A stretch of 64,000 nucleotides of DNA from Capsaspora owczarzaki ATCC 30864. Its lineage: Eukaryota > Opisthokonta > Filasterea. Shown here piece after piece: positions 1,041 to 53,885 of the stretch. The position numbers were made by a program, and so were the translations under genes. The stretch lies in contig NW_011887297.1 of assembly GCF_000151315.2 (NCBI RefSeq), positions 1,341,587 through 1,405,586 of the forward strand, read 5' to 3'. Under the pieces are notes generated by a model. The model made no database searches, was not told the origin of the DNA, and saw only the letters and a program-made list of their open reading frames with translations. The stretch's first letter is position 1, and each line of letters starts with the position of its first letter.

Positions 1041-3191
1041 ATGCAGCAGATGCGCGCAGTGTCGCTGGTCGACCGCCTCTCGCTGGGCTTCAACGGGAAC
1101 ATGTTTGCGCCTGCGATTTGCCTTGCCGACGTAGACAACGACGGCGACTCTGAGCTGGTTGTCGCGAACGTCAACGGCGAGCTGGCCATCTTCAAGGGCG
1201 GCCCGTTCGTCGACCCCGCCGCGCAGATGGCTCCGTGGCGCATGGCGAGCGATCTGGGCACCATTGCGTGTCTGGGCGTCGGCGATCTGCTCCAGTCCGG
1301 CCAGAACGTCCTCGTCGCCATCAACGCGATTGGCGAGTGCGTTGTCTTTGCGCTCGACCATGCGACGCAGCCGCCGGCCAGCAGCGGACCCGGAAGCAGA
1401 TCGGGTGCTGCTGGAGGAGCCCCGTCCTCTGCCACGCCGTTCCCTGCTGGGTTGTCAGGATCCGCGCCAGGTGCGCCCAGTGCAAGTGCAACTCCGGTGC
1501 CGAGATCGGCCGCGTCAACTCCGACGCCAGGCGCGAACGCTCCGTCCACTTCAAGCACATCCACCACCACCACCACCACACAAGCCTCAGCTAGTGGTTT
1601 GTCTGGCACGGCAGCGGCTGGTAGCACGGCCGCGAGTGGCCCGAATGCTTCCAGCACGCGCGACTTTCCATGCGAAATGGTCAGACCGGTCATGACTCTG
1701 CGTGTTGCAATCAATGTCAAGTCCATGCTGATTGCTGACATCGATGGAGATGGGAATAACGAGCTCGTGGTCGGGCGTACCGATCGTGTCGTCCATGCGT
1801 ACCGCTGGGAACCGGATGTGCTGGCGCCGACGACGGTTCAACCACCAGCAGTGTCAAGTACGCGCAGCTCAATGACCTCAGTTGCCACCATTCCTCCCGT
1901 CTCGGGCGGCGGATTTCCGAGCAGTAGTAGTGGTGGACTCGATGCAGGAATAGCTTCGTTGTCCGCCGACGCCCGGATACGTAATCTTCAGTTTGCCAAG
2001 GGGCGACTTGTTGCTGTCCGAAAGTAAGTGCAGCAAAATGTTCTGCGTGTCCTCGCCTCAAACTGCCTTCCTAACGTCTCCATTCCTCTTTTTTTCTCTC
2101 TCTCTTTTGATGCCAGATGGGACATGCCTGGACAGCTTGGCTCCATGTCGATGAGCATGCACCCCGTCACGAAAACGTTGCGGCTCATCATTTCGCAGCC
2201 AGGAGGCACGTTTGCATCGATCGAGCCGGACGGCAAGGTCGTGCATCACTCAGGCACCGGTGTCAATACAAGCGTTGGCGGTGTCAGCGATGCAAACAGT
2301 CCCGTGGATTCCAAGAGCGGCGTGACTGCGTCCTCGCCCGATCCCACGCTGCCAGTTTCGCCCGTCGATCCGTCCATGCCCAACCTCTTGCCCCTCCGCG
2401 ATCGAGACCGCGATCCTCTGATAGCGGCATCGATGGGAAGCATTTCGGGCTCGGCCCTTGGCGCATCCACTGAAGTCGCTGGCAACGTCGTGCGCTCGTC
2501 TGGCGTGTATGATCCGTTGCAGGCTGCCAGCAGTGACCAGGAGAGCACCGCAATCGCCGTGTGCACGCTTGACGGGTGTCTTCGACTGATGGACTTTGAT
2601 CGGATCTTGTGGGAGCTGTGCGTCGATCACCAGCTGTTTTCCATTTCCACGTTCAACGTCACTTCCGATCTTCCGCGTGGGCGATTCGATTCGACAATCC
2701 AAGATGGCGCTGCCAACAAGCCAACGGCCCAGTTGGAAGAAAACGCGCCTTTCGTCCCCATGCACCACGTCGCAGCGTGCGCATGGGATGGCATGACCTA
2801 CATTGTGGACTCTCGACCAAGCGCCATTCGCTTCCAATTTGAAGAGGATGTCTGCGCATTTGCCGCCGGCTATTTTGCTGTTGAGCGCGGCAACAACGTT
2901 CCAGTGCTCGTTTACGTGACATTTAGCGACCAGATTTATCTCTACTACAACATCGGCCTCGAATCCATTGGCGACCGGAGGTTGCTGGCCGATGTTCTCA
3001 ATTCCGACTCTGACCGAACTACCCTCAACCAGCTATCTGCGCCGCCCGCCCCTGGTGCCGAGATCTCACTACGAGAACAGTATGCCAAAACCATTTCGAC
3101 CGCGCTCTACGGCGCATCGCCCGATGAACTTCGTGCTTTGATAAGCCGTCTCAAGGGTGGGAATGCGGCCAGTAGTCCGAGCATTGAATAG
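1041..3191 (+). CDS. ITFG2: ITFG2-like KICSTOR subunit (FG-GAP/beta-propeller protein)
   Basis: Two exons, 1041-2023 and 2117-3191, are joined by one GT-AG intron in phase 2 and give 685 residues. The start is the ATG giving MQQMRAVSLVDRLSLGFNGN, which aligns with the human ITFG2 start. The FG-GAP-like blocks AICLADVDNDGDSELVVANV and IADIDGDGNNELVVGRTDRV are diagnostic. In animals ITFG2 sits with KPTN, KICS2 and SZT2 in KICSTOR on the lysosome. There it recruits GATOR1 and restrains mTORC1 when nutrients are low. The protein is about 240 residues longer than human ITFG2. The excess is Ser/Thr/Pro/Gly-rich inserts at roughly residues 115-215, 270-325 and 375-470, while the propeller blades between them are kept. 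The gene is convergent with TBCB, 130 bp away. Confidence 0.88.
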
Positions 3192-13022: not shown

Positions 13023-16000
13023 TTACTTCTTCTTGCTCTTGGCAGCCTTCTCCTTCCAGGCAGGCGTCCAGGGCTCGCCACCATACTTGGTCCAAGCCTC
13101 GTCAAACTCCTCGACCAGAATCTCGGCACCGCGCTTGCGGCACAGACCAGTCTCCTCGAGCGAAAGCTCGCACATCTCGAGGTCGTCGCGGCCAGCGAGC
13201 AGGAGAACGGGGTCCTTCTCGGGGTGCCACTCGAGCTGACGGGCAATCCATTGGCCATCAAAGTGGGCGTACCACCAGCCCTTCTTCTTGTACATCTTGG
13301 CCTTGTTGGCAGCGTTCTGGTCGGAAGGTCGGATGAACGGGATCTTAAAGTAGCGCTGCTCGCGGTTCTCGGCCTTGCTGGCAGTGCGTGGTGGCGGCGG
13401 GGGAGCGCCAGTGTCGTTGATTTCGGCAGCGTTCTCGAGCACTTCGGACGGGGCACGCTGGTCTTCCTCGGCAACGACCTCGGCAGCTTGCGCGCCACCG
13501 GGACCCGACGTGGCAGCGTTGGTCGCCATGTTCTTCTTCATGTGTTTCATCTTCCAGGCGTGGTAGACCTTCAGGCGGCGATGGAACTCCTCGCGGCAGG
13601 CCTCGAGCAGCTCGAGATCGACGGACGTGTTGATCGTGTCGCGGAGCTCGGCGTACTTCCACTTGGACAGATCGTGCTTGCCCTTCTTCTTCTCCTTGCC
13701 CTTGGCGGCCTCCTTCTGGCGCTTCTCCTCCTCCTTGCGAGCATCTTCGAGGACATCCTTGCCCTGCGACGTGTCCTCGGCAACACGGACGGCGAGCTCG
13801 AGATCGCGCTTCTCCTGCTCCTCTTGCTGCTTGCGCTGCAGCTCCTCCTGGCGCTCCTTTTCGAGCTTCTCCTGGAGCTTCTTGTTGGCAGCCTCGGCCT
13901 CGCGCTGCTTGCGGAGCTCCTCCTGGCGCTTGCGCTCCTCCTCTTCGGCCTTCTTGCGGGCAGCCTCGAGCTCGGCCTTCTTTCGGAGCTCCTCCTCGAG
14001 CTCGCGACGCTTGCGCTCCTCCTCTTCCTTGCGGAGACGCTCCTTCTCCATCTCCTCGGCGAGCTTGCGCAGACGCTCCTCCTCCTCCTGCTCCTTCTTC
14101 TTGGACTTGAGCTCGGTGAGTTGGCGGGCAATCTCGTCGTTGGCATCCTTCAGCTTGGCAAAGATCGTCTTGGGGTCGATCGTCCAGAGGCCCTTGGAAA
14201 CCTCCTCGATAGAGTCCTCGACAGGCTTGAGCTTCTTGGTGAACTTGTCGCCGTCCTTCTTGAGCTTGCTGATAATGTCGTTGACAATCTTGAGGTGCTC
14301 CTGGATGGCGAGCAGCTCGCGGCGAGCGCGGATGCGCGGGCGGATTTTGTTTTGTGCGTTAAAGCGACGAATGACGCTCTGGACAAGCAGCGCAGCGTTG
14401 CCGCGGTAGGTGATCTTTCGTTGGAGCTTGATGGTCGACAAGACGCCGAAAATGACCTTGCGCCAGCGCTTGCGAACAAGCCACCGTGTGACAGTCTCGA
14501 TAAGCGCCTTGAGGTTCTCTGGGTCGGCCTTGGTCATCTTGTCAAACTCGGCAAACTTGCCAGACTTGAAAAAGACCTTGGACATGCCAAACTGGAAGTG
14601 GGTCTCGTCCATGCCGAGCGCCTTGAAGAGCGCCTGGCAGAACGTGCGGGGGTCCAGCGAGGAGAGCTTGGCGGGCAGGAAGCCCTTGTACATTTCGTAC
14701 AAATCCGAAAAGGCCGTGCGCGACGGGTAGCCGCCCTGGAGAAGCGTCAGCACCTCAACCATGCCAGCGCACTGCAGCTGCGACAGAATTTCGGCACCGC
14801 TGAAAATGTTGGGCAGCATCTTGAGGTTGGGCTTGATGCAGCGGACAAAGTTGGAGCGGGTGGCGCGGAGCTTGTCCATGAGCTCGGTGAGCTGGCTCGA
14901 GAACTTTTTGCCGACCGACTCAAAGTGCAGCTTGGCGCGCTTGCCATTGTCCTTGCCAGAGTCCTTGGCGTCGCCCTCCGCGGAGGCAGGCTTGCTGAAG
15001 AGCTCCTTGATGAAGGCGTCCTTGGTCTCGTCCAGCAGCATCTCGAGATCGGCGTGCAGGGCATCGTTGTTCTTGTCGACAAAGCCGACAACTTCGTAGC
15101 AGACGGCACCGGCGTAGTGACGAATCATAAAGGCCTCGTCGTCGGTCAGCTTCTTTTGCGAGGGGACCTTGCTCTTCTTGGGCGAGACAAAGCGGAAGTG
15201 CTTCTTGAACTTGTTGTGCAGCGTCTGGGAGAAGTGCTTGTCGAGCGGGGTGGGCAGCTTGGCCTCCTCGTCGAGGGCGGCGAGAATGCCCTCCTTCTTG
15301 TCCTCAATCATGTCGATGACGTCCTGGTTGTCCAAGTACTCAATTTCGCGGTAGGTGATGCCCTCCTTGGCGTAGATCTCCTGCTCTTGCTTGAGCACCT
15401 TCTCGTTGAAGAACTGCTGCAGCTTCTCGTTGCAAAAGTTGATGCAGAACTGCTCAAACGAGTTGTGCTGGAAAAACTCAAAGCCGGCAATATCGAGGAC
15501 ACCAATGTAGTTGACAGACTCGCTGAAGGGGAAGCACTTGTTGACACGGGCGACAATCCAGTCAAAGAGGCGCGAGTAGATGGTCTTGGCCATGGCGTCA
15601 CGAGCCGACGAGGCCTCGCCAGTCTTGAGGGGCACCTTGTAGATGGTGCCCATGGCACCACCGCGGGTGGTCGACATGACGCGCGAGCAGAGCTTCTCCT
15701 TGAGGTCGTCCACGTTGACACCGAGCAGGTTGGCGACGGCGGTCGCGACAGTGATCGAGCTGCCGGCAACCTCCGAGCCGCCCTTGTTGTCCTTGGTGCT
15801 CTCCTCAAAGTCAATGTTGCCGAGCTGGAGCACAGCGCCGACAGTCTTGAAAATGTTGACCTGCTCCTCCTGCGACATGCCAATCAAGCCCATGGCCGTG
15901 GTGAGCTTGAGGAAGTCGCCCTTGTCGTCGAGGCCCTTGAGCGGGGTGGTGGTGCCCGACTTGAGGTAGCGGAACTTGTCGGGGGTCGAGAGGCCGAGCG

Positions 16001-16887
16001 CGCCAGCCATGTCTGCGGGGGCGCCGTGGCACATCTGGTAAAAGATGTGGTAGTTGCGCTCCTCCGACGCCTGGGAGACGATGCGGGACTTTTCGAGCAG
16101 GTAGTGGGAAATGTAGGCGCCCGAAACCGTGGACTTCGAGTCAAAGTGGATTTCAACAAACTTGCCAAAGCGCGACGAGTTGTAGTTGCGGGTGGTCTTG
16201 GCGTTGCCGAACGACTCGAGAATCGGGTTGGCCTGGAGAATGCGCTGCTCGAGGTCGCCGCTGGACGAGAGCGAGTCGGTCAGGTAGCGGATAATGTACT
16301 TGGTCGACTCGGTCTTGCCGGCACCAGACTCACCAGAGACAATGACGGACTGGCTGGTCTTGGACGCCTTCATGTCGCGGTACGCCTTGTCGGCAATGGC
16401 AAACACGTGCGGAGGCTCAACACCAAGCGACTTGCCGCGGTAGCGCTCAATCGACTTGCCGTCGTAGATGGGCAGCGAGGCGTACGGGTTGACGGCAATC
16501 AAAATGTTGGCAGTGTACGTGTAGATGGCACCCTTGGCATAACGCTTGCGCAGGTTGTGCAGCAGCGACGCCTCGTTCAAGAACATGAGCGCGCAGTTGT
16601 CGTCGACATCATTGTTGTCCGCGTCGTCAGCGGGGAAGACGCGATCGTACGAGACCTCTCGAGCCTGGACAATGGGCCAACAAAAAAAAAGCAGGAGGGA
16701 GGAGTCGCAGCAAAAAGTGAGTTTTTTTTTTCAGAGGAACAACAAAGGAAACCATTCAAAGGTTGCGACTTACCGCGCCACCGCCAGAGACGGGCTGGGC
16801 AGTGATGGTCTCGACTGCGAAATCGACAATGTCGCAGAGCTCGTAGCCCTCGTTGGTGTTTGGCGCCCAGACACGCTTGCCCTCCAT
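13023..16887 (-). CDS. MYO6: Myosin VI heavy chain
   Basis: Two exons, 16774-16887 and 13023-16664 (phase 0), give 1251 residues (human about 1290). Myosin VI is the minus-end-directed actin motor used in endocytosis and vesicle traffic. Exon 1 reads MEGKRVWAPNTNEGYELCDI, the class VI start. The P-loop GESGAGKT is at about residues 149-156. The class VI insert-2 / converter region (RWRKVIFGVLSTIKLQRKIT) follows the motor. A long highly charged E/R/K helix lies at roughly residues 830-980 and probably forms a single alpha-helix lever. The tail has KYDLSKWKYAELRDTINTS, the RRL site in EFHRRLKVYHAW (about residue 1069) and the WWY site in KKGWWYAHFDGQW (about residue 1168), which bind cargo adaptors in animals. 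Identity is secure. Confidence 0.97.
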
Positions 16888-50267: not shown

Positions 50268-53200
50268 TTAAGCCTCGGATTCAACATCAGCAAGCATGCC
50301 GCCGAAGGCATAACTGGCCGTGCTCAAGTACATGGTGGCGGGCGTGGAGGCGTAGAGATCCGCCTCCTCTTCGACGGTGGGCTTGGTGAGAATCGAGTAC
50401 TCGTTCGGCGGGTTGGAGGGTTGCGTGGGGACATGGCCACCCACAGCGTAGGTGGGCTCCTCGATCACCTTTGCACGCTGGAAGTAGGAGATGGCCGCTT
50501 CGCGGTTGCCGAGCTTGTTGTACGCCTGTCCAATCTCTCGAAGCGTGACGGCGAGTTCGGGATGCTCGGTGCCGTAGACGCGGCTCTGGATGCCCAAAGC
50601 ACGTTCAAGCTCGTTGCGCGTCTGAATCCACTCATTCAAGCCAGCGTGAGCACGCGCCTTCTCAACGTACACGACGGCTTGCGTAATGTGACCATCACCG
50701 AGGTGTTGACGCAGCACGGCCAAGGCGTGGTCAAACTGACCCAAGGCAACGGCGTAGTCGCCGACGAGATTGTTTGTGCGGCCAATCTCGAACGTGAGCA
50801 GCACAAATTCAATGTGGTCGGCCTGGTGACGCTGCGCCTTGATGTGCTGGGCGCGGTTCAGAAGAGCATGGGCGGCCGCGTGATTTCCAAGAGCATTCTC
50901 GCAACGAGCAATTTCCATCAGCGTGTTGGCCACGCGCTCGTGCTTGGGGCCGAACGTTGTCTCTTGCACGGCAAGCAGCTGCTGGAAAATCTCCATCGCC
51001 TCCTTGGGCGAGCCGGTGGCCAGACACGACTTGGCAAACTCAAAGCGCGTAGCAAGGGTGACGACGTGGTTGGGGCCGAAAATCTTCTCCTGAGTCGTCA
51101 GGGCCTGCTGGATGAGCGTGCGGGCCCGAGCGTGCTCGCCAGACACCAAGCACGCCTTGCCCAGCTCCAGAACGATGCCAGCGACATGCACGTGCGACGG
51201 GCCGTAATGCTTGGTGTACACGTCCATCGCATACTCGATGCATGGCTTGGCTTGCTTCGTGGCACCACGACGCATCAGGTCCTTGCCATACTGGAGCTGC
51301 TCGGTAGCCTCGGCGACAGAGCCGACGGCGTACTGCGAGACTGGACGCTGCGGCAGCGGCTGGGGGCCCGAGTCTGCAGCCGCTCCGCGCGGCGCACGAG
51401 GAGGGAGAGGCAGGGCGTTGGACACTGTCTTGACAGGGACTGCTGGCGCTGCAGGAGCCGGAGTAACCGCAACAGAAGTGCGTTTGGGCGGCAGCGGCGG
51501 AGGCGCCGCGCCTCCCTGCACACTGCTCGCCGGCGGAAGCGGAGCGCCGTCCATGCTCTGGTACAGGGGGCCGGCGTTGGGCGCTGCCGCGGTGCCGTAA
51601 AAGTTTGACGCCGTGCCGTAAAAGCTCGACGCCGGGCTGGCCGAGACGTCGGCAATCTGCTGCACCAAGTCGCCCAGCTGAGAAAAGGTCGGGCGCGATT
51701 CGGGAGACTGGTCCCACGAGCGCGAAATCAGAGCACGCAAAGTCGGCGTGGCGTCATCGGGAATGTCCGGGCGATCTCCTTCGTTGACAGCCGAGCGAAT
51801 GGCCTTGTCGTTCATGCCCTTGTACGGCAGTTGGCGCGCAGCCGTCTCCCACGCAACAATGCCAAAGGCAAAGACGTCCGACTTTTCGTCTGCGGGCACA
51901 TTCTCGGACGTCAGCAGCTCAGGGGCCGTGTAGTGCAAGGTGGCTTCGGTTGGCGGATGCGCAGCGGCAGTTTCCTGGCGGATGCGGGCGTACCCGAAAT
52001 CCGACACCTTGGCACGCATTTCCGAGGTGATCAGCACGTTGGAAGACTTGAGGTTGCGGTGGACAATGCCGGCGCGGGCGAGGCAGGTCATGCCACGCGC
52101 AGTGTCCTGCAAGATGCGGCCGCGCACGGCCAGTGTGAGCGTCGGGTGGGTTGCCGTGTCCGCGAGCAGTTGGCGCAGACTGCCGCTGGGGAAGTACTCG
52201 AGCACCAAGGCATAGTTGTTGGCGTCAAAGCAGGCGCCGAGCAGCATGGCAATGTTCTGGTGCTGGATGCGCCCGTGCGCCAAAACCTCACGACGAAACT
52301 CGTCAAGCAAGCGCGCATCGAGCTGCGTGAGGATGAGCTGCTTGATGGCAACTGTCTCTTGGTTCCACTTGCCCAGGGAGACCTTGCCAAAGGTGCCGCT
52401 GCCGAGAGCCTTTTCAAACTTGAGAGTCGCGTGCGGGATGGACAGCGAGCTGGCGTTCGCCGAGTCGACGCCGTCTGAAAGGCTGCCAGAGTTTTGGTAA
52501 ATGTTGCTGGCGGTGGGAGCAGGCTTGCCAGCGACCGAGGCGTTTTGGTAAATGGCGCCGCTCACACCCGAGTTTTGATAAATGGCACCGCCAGCAGCAG
52601 CAGCAGCACCCGAGTTTTGATAAATGGCACCGCCAGCAGCAGCAGCAGGAGTAGCAGCACCAGCACCCGAGTTTTGATACACAGGGCCACCGGCGCTCAC
52701 ACCAGAGTTTTGATAAACAGGAGCACCAGCACCAGAGTTTTGATAAACCGGACCACTGCCGCTGACGCCAGAGTTCTGATAAACAGGAGGAGCACCGGCA
52801 CCAGAGTTCTGGTAGATGGAGCCGCCAGGAGGCGCAACTCCGGGCGCTTGATAGGTAGAGTCAGTCGCTTGGTAGATGCCCGTCGCTTGGTAGCCTGCAT
52901 CTGTCGCCTGGTAAATGTCCGTCGCTTGGTAATGAGGGCCAGGCGCTTGGTAGGTGTCGGAGGAGCCGTAGATGGCGCTGTCGTAGCCGGGGTCGTTCGG
53001 ATTTTGGTAGTTGGTTTGCTGCTGATGAGCTCCGGTTTGATACGTGACGGCACCGCCATAGATGGACTTGGGGGTGGCACCGGGAGCCTGGTAGGTGGAT
53101 TCGTAGATGGGTGCGGCACCGCCGGCACCATTGCCGACAGCGGCGTAGCTCGAGGTGGAGCCGTACGTGTTGGTTGACACCGTCACGTTGTTACTGGCCG

Positions 53201-53885
53201 CCTGGCCGTAGCCGTAGGTGGAGGTCGACACCACCGTCACGTTATCGACCGCCTGGTAGATGGGGTTGCTCGGCGGGGGTCCAGGCGGGTTGTTGCCAGG
53301 ACGAGCGGCAGCCGTGGTTGAGCCGTACAGCGAGAAGGCAGGCGGACCCCCCGTCGGCGGCGGAATGACACTCGCGGGTCTCGGAGCGCTGCTGCTGCTG
53401 CTGCTGCCACTCGCCCCGGACGACTGGTTGCCTTGGAGGGACAGGGAAGCCAGGCGCGCGATGGCAGCCTCAATCTGCTGCTTGTTCTTGGTGATGAATT
53501 TTGCGTCCTTGTTCTGGTCGTCCGTGTCCTGGGAGCGGTCAAAGACACTCTTGACCTTGATGTTGAGCTTGAGGCCCTGCACGGCAGCGAGGAAGCGGTC
53601 GTTGATGTCGGTGAAGGCGGCCTTGTCGGTGCCCTTCTGGACGACCGTGTGGGCCCACTCTTCAGCCGAGTAGACCTCGACGAGCTCCTTGGCGTCGACG
53701 AACGTGCGCGCCAGTGCCCCGAGCAGCTTGGCCGACGTGTCTGCAGGCAGCTTCTCGATCGCAGGCATGCACGCCTGCACGCGCTTGGCCAGGCGGCTCG
53801 TCTGCTCGTAGTTGATGTTGACGTACTCGATCGCCTTGACGAGTGCGCGTCCCAGCGCCGCAACCGAGCTCGGTGTGTCGCTCAT
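50268..53885 (-). CDS. MLKL-like pseudokinase with tyrosine-motif array and TPRs
   Basis: One uninterrupted frame of 1205 residues. Residues 1 to about 165 resemble the MLKL N-terminal helical bundle and brace: SRLAKRVQACMPAIEKL, ELVEVYSAEEW, AFTDINDRFLAAVQGLKLNI and KNKQQIEAAIARLASL. Residues about 200-465 are disordered and full of tyrosine motifs, first YQA(T/P) units, then about nine I/V-YQN-S/A units. Residues about 488-745 are a kinase domain with GSGTFGKV, VAIK (K515), an HRN loop in GIVHRNLKSSN (N611 in place of Asp), DFG (D629) and TAPELL. Residues about 850-1140 hold kinesin-light-chain-type TPRs (KHYGPSHVHVAGI, EKIFGPNHVVTLATR, VYGTEHPELAVTL). Loss of the catalytic Asp predicts weak or no phosphotransfer, as in MLKL. 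Role unknown; a scaffold in tyrosine signalling or a membrane-active adaptor are both possible. Confidence 0.85.
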   Translation of the reverse strand: MSDTPSSVAALGRALVKAIEYVNINYEQTSRLAKRVQACMPAIEKLPADTSAKLLGALARTFVDAKELVEVYSAEEWAHTVVQKGTDKAAFTDINDRFLAAVQGLKLNIKVKSVFDRSQDTDDQNKDAKFITKNKQQIEAAIARLASLSLQGNQSSGASGSSSSSSAPRPASVIPPPTGGPPAFSLYGSTTAAARPGNNPPGPPPSNPIYQAVDNVTVVSTSTYGYGQAASNNVTVSTNTYGSTSSYAAVGNGAGGAAPIYESTYQAPGATPKSIYGGAVTYQTGAHQQQTNYQNPNDPGYDSAIYGSSDTYQAPGPHYQATDIYQATDAGYQATGIYQATDSTYQAPGVAPPGGSIYQNSGAGAPPVYQNSGVSGSGPVYQNSGAGAPVYQNSGVSAGGPVYQNSGAGAATPAAAAGGAIYQNSGAAAAAGGAIYQNSGVSGAIYQNASVAGKPAPTASNIYQNSGSLSDGVDSANASSLSIPHATLKFEKALGSGTFGKVSLGKWNQETVAIKQLILTQLDARLLDEFRREVLAHGRIQHQNIAMLLGACFDANNYALVLEYFPSGSLRQLLADTATHPTLTLAVRGRILQDTARGMTCLARAGIVHRNLKSSNVLITSEMRAKVSDFGYARIRQETAAAHPPTEATLHYTAPELLTSENVPADEKSDVFAFGIVAWETAARQLPYKGMNDKAIRSAVNEGDRPDIPDDATPTLRALISRSWDQSPESRPTFSQLGDLVQQIADVSASPASSFYGTASNFYGTAAAPNAGPLYQSMDGAPLPPASSVQGGAAPPPLPPKRTSVAVTPAPAAPAVPVKTVSNALPLPPRAPRGAAADSGPQPLPQRPVSQYAVGSVAEATEQLQYGKDLMRRGATKQAKPCIEYAMDVYTKHYGPSHVHVAGIVLELGKACLVSGEHARARTLIQQALTTQEKIFGPNHVVTLATRFEFAKSCLATGSPKEAMEIFQQLLAVQETTFGPKHERVANTLMEIARCENALGNHAAAHALLNRAQHIKAQRHQADHIEFVLLTFEIGRTNNLVGDYAVALGQFDHALAVLRQHLGDGHITQAVVYVEKARAHAGLNEWIQTRNELERALGIQSRVYGTEHPELAVTLREIGQAYNKLGNREAAISYFQRAKVIEEPTYAVGGHVPTQPSNPPNEYSILTKPTVEEEADLYASTPATMYLSTASYAFGGMLADVESEA
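52485..52822 (-). repeat. Coding tandem repeat, Y-Q-N-S/A units
   Basis: About nine degenerate units, each holding ttttgata/ttctggta on the plus strand (Tyr-Gln-Asn on the coding strand), are separated by 5-16 Gly/Ala/Ser/Val-rich residues. A related YQA array lies just upstream in the protein (about 52840-52965) and another YQN at about 53000. The repeat is in frame and spacing varies, so it is a protein-level repeat rather than a microsatellite. Confidence 0.85.

Follow-up and report, generated by a model that had tools for sequence, protein, structure and literature searches.

Gene architecture and paralogues

We analysed a stretch of 64,000 nucleotides from the genome of Capsaspora owczarzaki ATCC 30864 (referred to as the window) and focused on one gene within it, gene A, whose product joins an MLKL-type N-terminal bundle to a kinase-like domain. 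Gene A is encoded on the minus strand at 50268..53885, with the first in-frame ATG at 53885 and the stop codon ending at 50268. An earlier note made from the letters of this DNA had described a single frame of 1205 residues, and exactly this frame was recovered, unbroken from ATG to stop (1205 residues plus the stop), so that an intron would not be required. From the N- to the C-terminus, the predicted protein is composed of an MLKL_N bundle, a tyrosine-rich linker of 320 residues, a kinase domain with an HRN loop, proline-rich motifs of the SH3-ligand type and tetratricopeptide repeats (TPRs) of the kinesin light chain type. The gene as a whole is conserved when compared with its paralogues, and all features of A described below lie on the minus strand.

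The genome, 27,456,641 bases in 29 contigs for a species with 16 chromosomes (PMC10232365), was searched for paralogues and possible partners of A. The Pfam family MLKL_N matched three places, A and two further genes designated B and C, and in 3/3 cases the bundle is fused to a kinase domain. Paralogue B (977 residues; L006:4223-7153, G000:C5, plus strand) contains, in one frame, the bundle, a kinase with an intact HRD, a proline-rich part and TPRs, followed at the C-terminus by an SH3 domain of the Src-like kind. Paralogue C (720 residues; L007:3773-5932, G000:C1, plus strand) is composed of the bundle, a stretch that looks charged and coiled-coil-like by eye, a linker with the motifs YGN, YQN and YGN, and a pseudokinase with an HLN loop. 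Among the three proteins, C comes nearest to the plain MLKL layout by its predicted domain order, and a link to that layout gains in likelihood from its succession of bundle, coiled-coil-like stretch, linker and pseudokinase.

The N-terminal domain is related to the MLKL bundle

The MLKL_N domain of A (Pfam PF22215) covers residues 8-114 (53544..53864). It was detected with an E-value of 3.4e-12 and 46.5 bits when the whole protein was used as the query, and with 1.3e-13 and 51.1 bits when residues 1-183 were used alone, the cut-off being 27 bits in both cases. MLKL_N was the sole Pfam family found for residues 1-183 at E<=1, and the HeLo and RPW8 models, whose bundles are treated in the literature as kin of the MLKL bundle, gave no match for these residues at that threshold. 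When a profile of the three N-termini of A, B and C was compared with the PDB, the top seven distinct sequences were all MLKL (E 4.7e-15 to 9.6e-11), and the first match to another protein was CHMP1A at E 0.0086. The N-terminus of B singly also retrieved MLKL first (E 2.6e-5). To provide a held-out control, a hidden Markov model was built from B and C only; it gave 48.4 bits to A and 41.1 bits to mouse MLKL, and the maximum among 4000 shuffled sequences (2000 of A and 2000 of mouse MLKL) was 12.0 bits. Judged from these sequence comparisons, the MLKL likeness of the N-terminus of A is not due to chance, and the domain shares homology with the four-helix bundle of MLKL, as the earlier note had proposed from the spacing of its blocks. 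Structure models of the N-terminus made from the single sequence were of low confidence (mean predicted local distance difference test scores, pLDDT, of 44.9 and 55.8), and fold searches with them returned no significant match. The N-terminal alignment was also scanned over viral contigs and prokaryote genomes, where none of the 129 and 79 pattern matches, respectively, was confirmed.

Of the brace that had been suggested to follow the bundle, the first helix is partly supported. This possible helix lies at residues 116-155 (53421..53540), where an Asp-Arg pair at residues 116-117 of A is invariant in A, B and C, the profile alignments continue to mouse MLKL residues 157 and 162, and a helix is predicted with low confidence at residues 121-154. 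The second brace helix found no support in the profile alignments of A, B and C with MLKL.

We then asked how the bundle compares with one for which killing has been described. In the available part of PMC11476962, nine single bundle residues are given whose mutation weakened killing by a rotifer MLKL. These are retained at 5/9 positions in A, 8/9 in B and 3/9 in C, and at 3 further positions A carries a different but similarly hydrophobic residue. The map to mouse numbering is our own, made by spacing and identity, with the T77-K78 pair left unmapped; E22 was excluded from the set because the E22 mutant remained active according to the same source. The retained residues may reflect the fold rather than lysis.

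The kinase domain is a pseudokinase, probably of the TKL kind

The kinase domain of A was assigned to Pfam PK_Tyr_Ser-Thr (PF07714) at residues 488-737 (51675..52424) with an E-value of 1.3e-53. In the alignment of the three proteins, HRD is replaced by HRN in A (residues 609-611, 52053..52061) and by HLN in C, and is present in B; mouse MLKL reads lhrn at the equivalent place. The VAIK and DFG motifs are intact in A, and B and C both retain the VA[VI]K lysine and DFG. By its HRN loop the domain of A is classified as a pseudokinase, as in the earlier note, and the catalytic aspartate was probably lost in A and C and kept in B.

Within the genome, the kinase domain of A is most similar to that of B (47% identity, 254 bits), followed by C (36%, 125 bits), and the next kinase scored 97 bits. 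In this search 141 of 370 candidates were scored, at least 37 matches were obtained at E<=1e-20 and 30 of them were given as loci. A tree of 34 rows was constructed from 27 of these loci (L011-L037), from A, B and C (L008-L010) and from four references, with 7 matches that had no loci excluded; its bootstrap was unsettled (correlation 0.969), and long branches lead to MLKL, C, L021 and RIPK1. A, B and C form a single branch in this tree with a support of 92/93, which was not starred by the program, which makes a joint descent of bundle and kinase probable within this lineage.

The best tree does not group mouse MLKL with A, B and C. Constraining A, B and C to join mouse MLKL gave an approximately unbiased test p-value (p-AU) of 0.251 and constraining them to join CTR1 gave 0.506, so neither grouping was rejected; A, B and C together with RIPK1 already make up one side of a branch, with a support of 39/0. 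A profile of the bundle and kinase of A, B and C ranked CTR1 (225 bits) above mouse MLKL (182 bits, of which 54.5 for the bundle and 125.7 for the kinase), RIPK1 (180), FGFR3 (167) and Src (165), and an EGFR chain with two kinase copies reached 225 bits as a sum of 112 for each copy. The kinase part of MLKL (126 bits) thus lies below CTR1, RIPK1, FGFR3 and Src in this ranking. With A alone as the query, the order of matches was CTR1, EGFR (two copies), the Src-Abl ancestor and RIPK1. We read the domain as one of the tyrosine kinase-like (TKL) kind, with no special leaning to MLKL; direct kinship with the MLKL kinase is neither supported nor rejected by these comparisons.

A tyrosine-rich linker connects the bundle to the pseudokinase

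Residues 156-475 of A (52461..53420) constitute the linker, a low-complexity region with internal tandem duplications. It contains 28 tyrosines, 10/28 of which stand in YQN motifs that are gathered at residues 293-465 (52491..53009), consistent with the tyrosine-motif scaffold expected from the earlier reading. YxN is the motif bound by the GRB2 SH2 domain, in which a tryptophan sets the preference. An SH2 domain encoded in the Capsaspora genome best matches GRB2 in the PDB (E 2.9e-30) and has the GRB2 tryptophan at the same alignment column; in total, 34 SH2 matches were found in the genome, some of which are pieces of one domain.

The ten YxN motifs in the linker of A compare with a shuffle mean of 1.83, and 0/10,000 shuffles reached the observed number. 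The tandem repeats inflate this shuffle result, and the enrichment in A was dropped as stand-alone proof of selection. The linker of C contains 4 tyrosines, 3/4 of them in YxN, and these three motifs, which lie outside repeats of that kind, are the better evidence of selection. Separately, one perfect duplication of 42 bases in the linker of A (52565-52648) suggests that the YQN array still varies in copy number.

The region behind the pseudokinase

A proline-rich stretch follows the pseudokinase of A at residues 790-835 (51381..51518) and includes PPLPPK with the overlapping PLPPKR, and PAVPVK. Motifs of this PxxPx[KR] form are present in all three proteins. The TPR array of A covers residues 899-1138 (50472..51191); it was recognised by Pfam TPR_12, TPR_10 and others, which extend to residue 1138, and kinesin light chains were its best matches in the PDB (E 8.7e-17), which agrees with the repeat type named in the earlier note. 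A search of the genome with this array returned only the match to itself at E<=1e-10 and did not recover B. The protein ends in an acidic tail (residues 1141-1205, 50268..50465) with a net charge of -9 and five tyrosines.

A possible role in phosphotyrosine signalling at membranes

We tentatively propose, with a little less than even confidence, that A is a member of a three-protein MLKL-like family that is tied to phosphotyrosine signalling, in which the bundle acts as a membrane-binding and oligomerising effector and B is a possible activating kinase. The bundle of A would bind the membrane and oligomerise as in MLKL, and the rest of the protein would hold the bundles off or apart. The YQN tyrosines would be phosphorylated by Capsaspora tyrosine kinases and then bound by the GRB2-like SH2 protein that the genome encodes, and the TPR array would capture cargo or a ligand that acts upstream. 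The pseudokinase of A may serve as a switch that receives a phosphate instead of transferring it. B, with the same bundle and TPRs, an intact HRD and an SH3 domain, would be the strongest candidate for an activating kinase and would phosphorylate A and C; a kinase and pseudokinase pair joined through shared bundles would resemble RIPK3 and MLKL in logic, not by demonstrated descent. As the output, the bundles would cluster on the membrane, and lysis is a possible, unproven result.

Several observations weigh against this proposal. The N-terminus of A used singly found mouse MLKL first in the PDB at an E-value of just 0.061; it is the profiles that make the case for its homology to the MLKL bundle strong. 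The bundles carry net charges of +2 (A), -2 (B) and +1 (C), and with such near-neutral values bulk charge provides no strong basic membrane face; C has moreover lost several of the residues that rotifer MLKL requires. B is without YxN motifs, and the YxN copies of A lie partly within tandem repeats, which means that their count overstates independent selection. The linker of 320 residues, unlike the arrangement in MLKL, parts the bundle from the pseudokinase and makes direct autoinhibition by the kinase domain doubtful.

Alternatively, the bundle may have been re-used as a non-lytic domain for oligomerisation or docking, with A as an adaptor that assembles SH2, SH3 and TPR partners, either for signalling by tyrosine kinases or for the transport of motor cargo. 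The majority of A is adaptor-like, with its YxN stretch, PxxPx[KR] motifs and kinesin-light-chain-type TPRs, and the SH3 domain of B, the GRB2-like SH2 in the genome, the nearly neutral bundles and the missing death-linked residues of C point in the same direction. On the other hand, the killing residues retained in B and A and the relatives of the bundle in animals, plants and fungi, which the accessible portions of PMC12881547 and PMC10951266 present as effectors of death or of membranes, argue for an effector, and we regard the adaptor as quite possible though not as the explanation we would choose. The earlier suggestion of either an early MLKL relative or a re-used adaptor stood in part: paralogue C favours a link to the MLKL layout, and a kinship specific to the MLKL kinase did not emerge from the tree test or the profile ranking.

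True orthology with animal MLKL, through a single bundle-kinase fusion that arose before animals and was retained in deuterostomes, would account for the bundle preceding the kinase, for the HRN common to A and mouse MLKL and for the constrained clade that was not rejected. We consider it improbable. MLKL falls outside A, B and C in the best tree, other kinases outscore its kinase part, and because B retains HRD, the HRN of A probably arose separately from that of MLKL, by parallel loss. Furthermore, a survey of 34 metazoan phyla, in the part available, detected MLKL in neither Radiata nor Ecdysozoa (PMC11476962), and such a patchy distribution does not favour simple descent; the bundle-kinase fusions of plants use another kind of kinase, as far as PMC10951266 describes them, which makes repeated fusion plausible. 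That the N-terminus of A is an unrelated coiled coil with a chance likeness to MLKL has almost no probability in our estimate: the low-confidence models and the fold searches would allow it, and it is contradicted at the sequence level by the Pfam match, by the profile search of the PDB and by the held-out control with shuffled sequences, each of which points to MLKL.

A bolder version of the proposed signalling family, which we think unlikely, is that a filasterean lineage had, before animals, a self-contained kinase and pseudokinase system for membrane death, in which B, as an active bundle kinase, would phosphorylate A and C and GRB2-like adaptors would gate the process through phosphotyrosine. 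If this were true, a single-celled organism would already have brought necroptosis-like killing and tyrosine signalling together.

Other observations in the genome and the window

In vertebrates, the Z-alpha domains of ZBP1 can trigger necroptosis. One Z-alpha domain was found in the Capsaspora genome, in a short frame (L046, G000:C13:409894-410049), and the presence of Z-alpha in C. owczarzaki is reported in the available text of PMC11293857. NB-ARC gave 2 matches in the genome, one of 24.1 bits and one of 22.8 bits, the latter reaching 45.7 bits with its in-frame neighbours.

Twenty-three of the kinases in the tree (L013-L037 without L017 and L021) form one branch with a support of 100/100, a lineage-specific expansion. 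Their catalytic loops read HLDLK[TS]xN in 22 cases and HRDLKTDN in one, and coiled-coil repeats of the KDQEL type precede the kinase in the four frames of this branch that were inspected. L021 (G000:C12:25232-26059) is KSR-like by eye and appears to be another pseudokinase; it has a cysteine stretch of the C1 type, its loop reads HRN, and its DFG is replaced by GFG.

Elsewhere in the window, a myosin VI with its motor, lever arm and cargo-binding domain is encoded in a single frame at 13023-16586 on the minus strand. An ITFG2 homologue extends over two consecutive open reading frames in the same frame at 1041-3191 on the plus strand, with one stop between them that is probably spanned by an intron.

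Comparison with known systems

Animal MLKL (mouse 4btf, human 2msv and 6lk5) shares with A an N-terminal bundle, as recognised by profile, that is followed by a pseudokinase, and mouse MLKL has HRN as in A. The two differ in that mouse MLKL reads GFE where A has DFG, and the MLKL order of bundle, brace and pseudokinase without further parts is not that of A, which adds the 320-residue tyrosine-rich linker before the kinase and the proline-rich part and TPRs behind it. Kinesin light chains have the same type of TPR, which in A comes behind a pseudokinase.

Among fungi, the MLKL homologues of Glomeromycotina with Sel1 repeats (PMC8778642) are a close analogue, since they also combine an MLKL homologue with alpha-solenoid repeats; compared by description, they differ in being fungal and in having Sel1 instead of kinesin-light-chain-type repeats, and the available part of that source describes no tyrosine scaffold. 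The fungal HELL domain fused to a kinase or pseudokinase (PMC12881547) likewise places a bundle and a kinase in a single chain, a likeness drawn only from the description in the accessible part of the article. The Pfam HeLo model PF14479 had no match in the Capsaspora genome, in a search that was also blank in all its control genomes. In basidiomycete NLR proteins, a bundle of the MLKL_NTD type serves as effector at the N-terminus of a longer chain, although, in the portion of PMC9815663 at hand, NLR parts and not a kinase are attached to it. Plant Pm13 and other MLKL_NTD-kinase proteins (PMC10951266) also join this bundle to a kinase, and the kinase of Pm13 is predicted to work, like that of B. 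Pm13 differs in its kinase, of the LRR_8B subfamily, and in its size of 476 residues, with two domains only in the part of the description available.

The earlier note knew of no protein with the exact order of A, and none was found in the open-access literature, the Glomeromycotina homologues being the close analogue. A, B and C are likewise undescribed in the accessible text of open-access literature on MLKL, pseudokinases and necroptosis in Capsaspora, choanoflagellates and holozoans, though they may already stand in Pfam or InterPro lists. According to the available part of PMC11476962, the 2024 survey of metazoan phyla records MLKL from deuterostomes and bdelloid rotifers alone and describes its origin as unclear. 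With A, B and C encoded by a unicellular organism closely related to animals, candidate MLKL relatives would stand just outside the animals, and the coupling with YxN motifs suggests that such an organism combined tyrosine signalling with a bundle of the death type. The unclear origin of MLKL thereby becomes testable at the bench through three Capsaspora proteins, and whether killing activity predates animals is open to the HEK293T assay that was used for invertebrate N-termini, as described in the same part of PMC11476962. Fusions of a bundle to a kinase are already known from animals, plants and fungi; to our knowledge, the tyrosine scaffold, the SH3 domain of B and the unicellular holozoan host are new.

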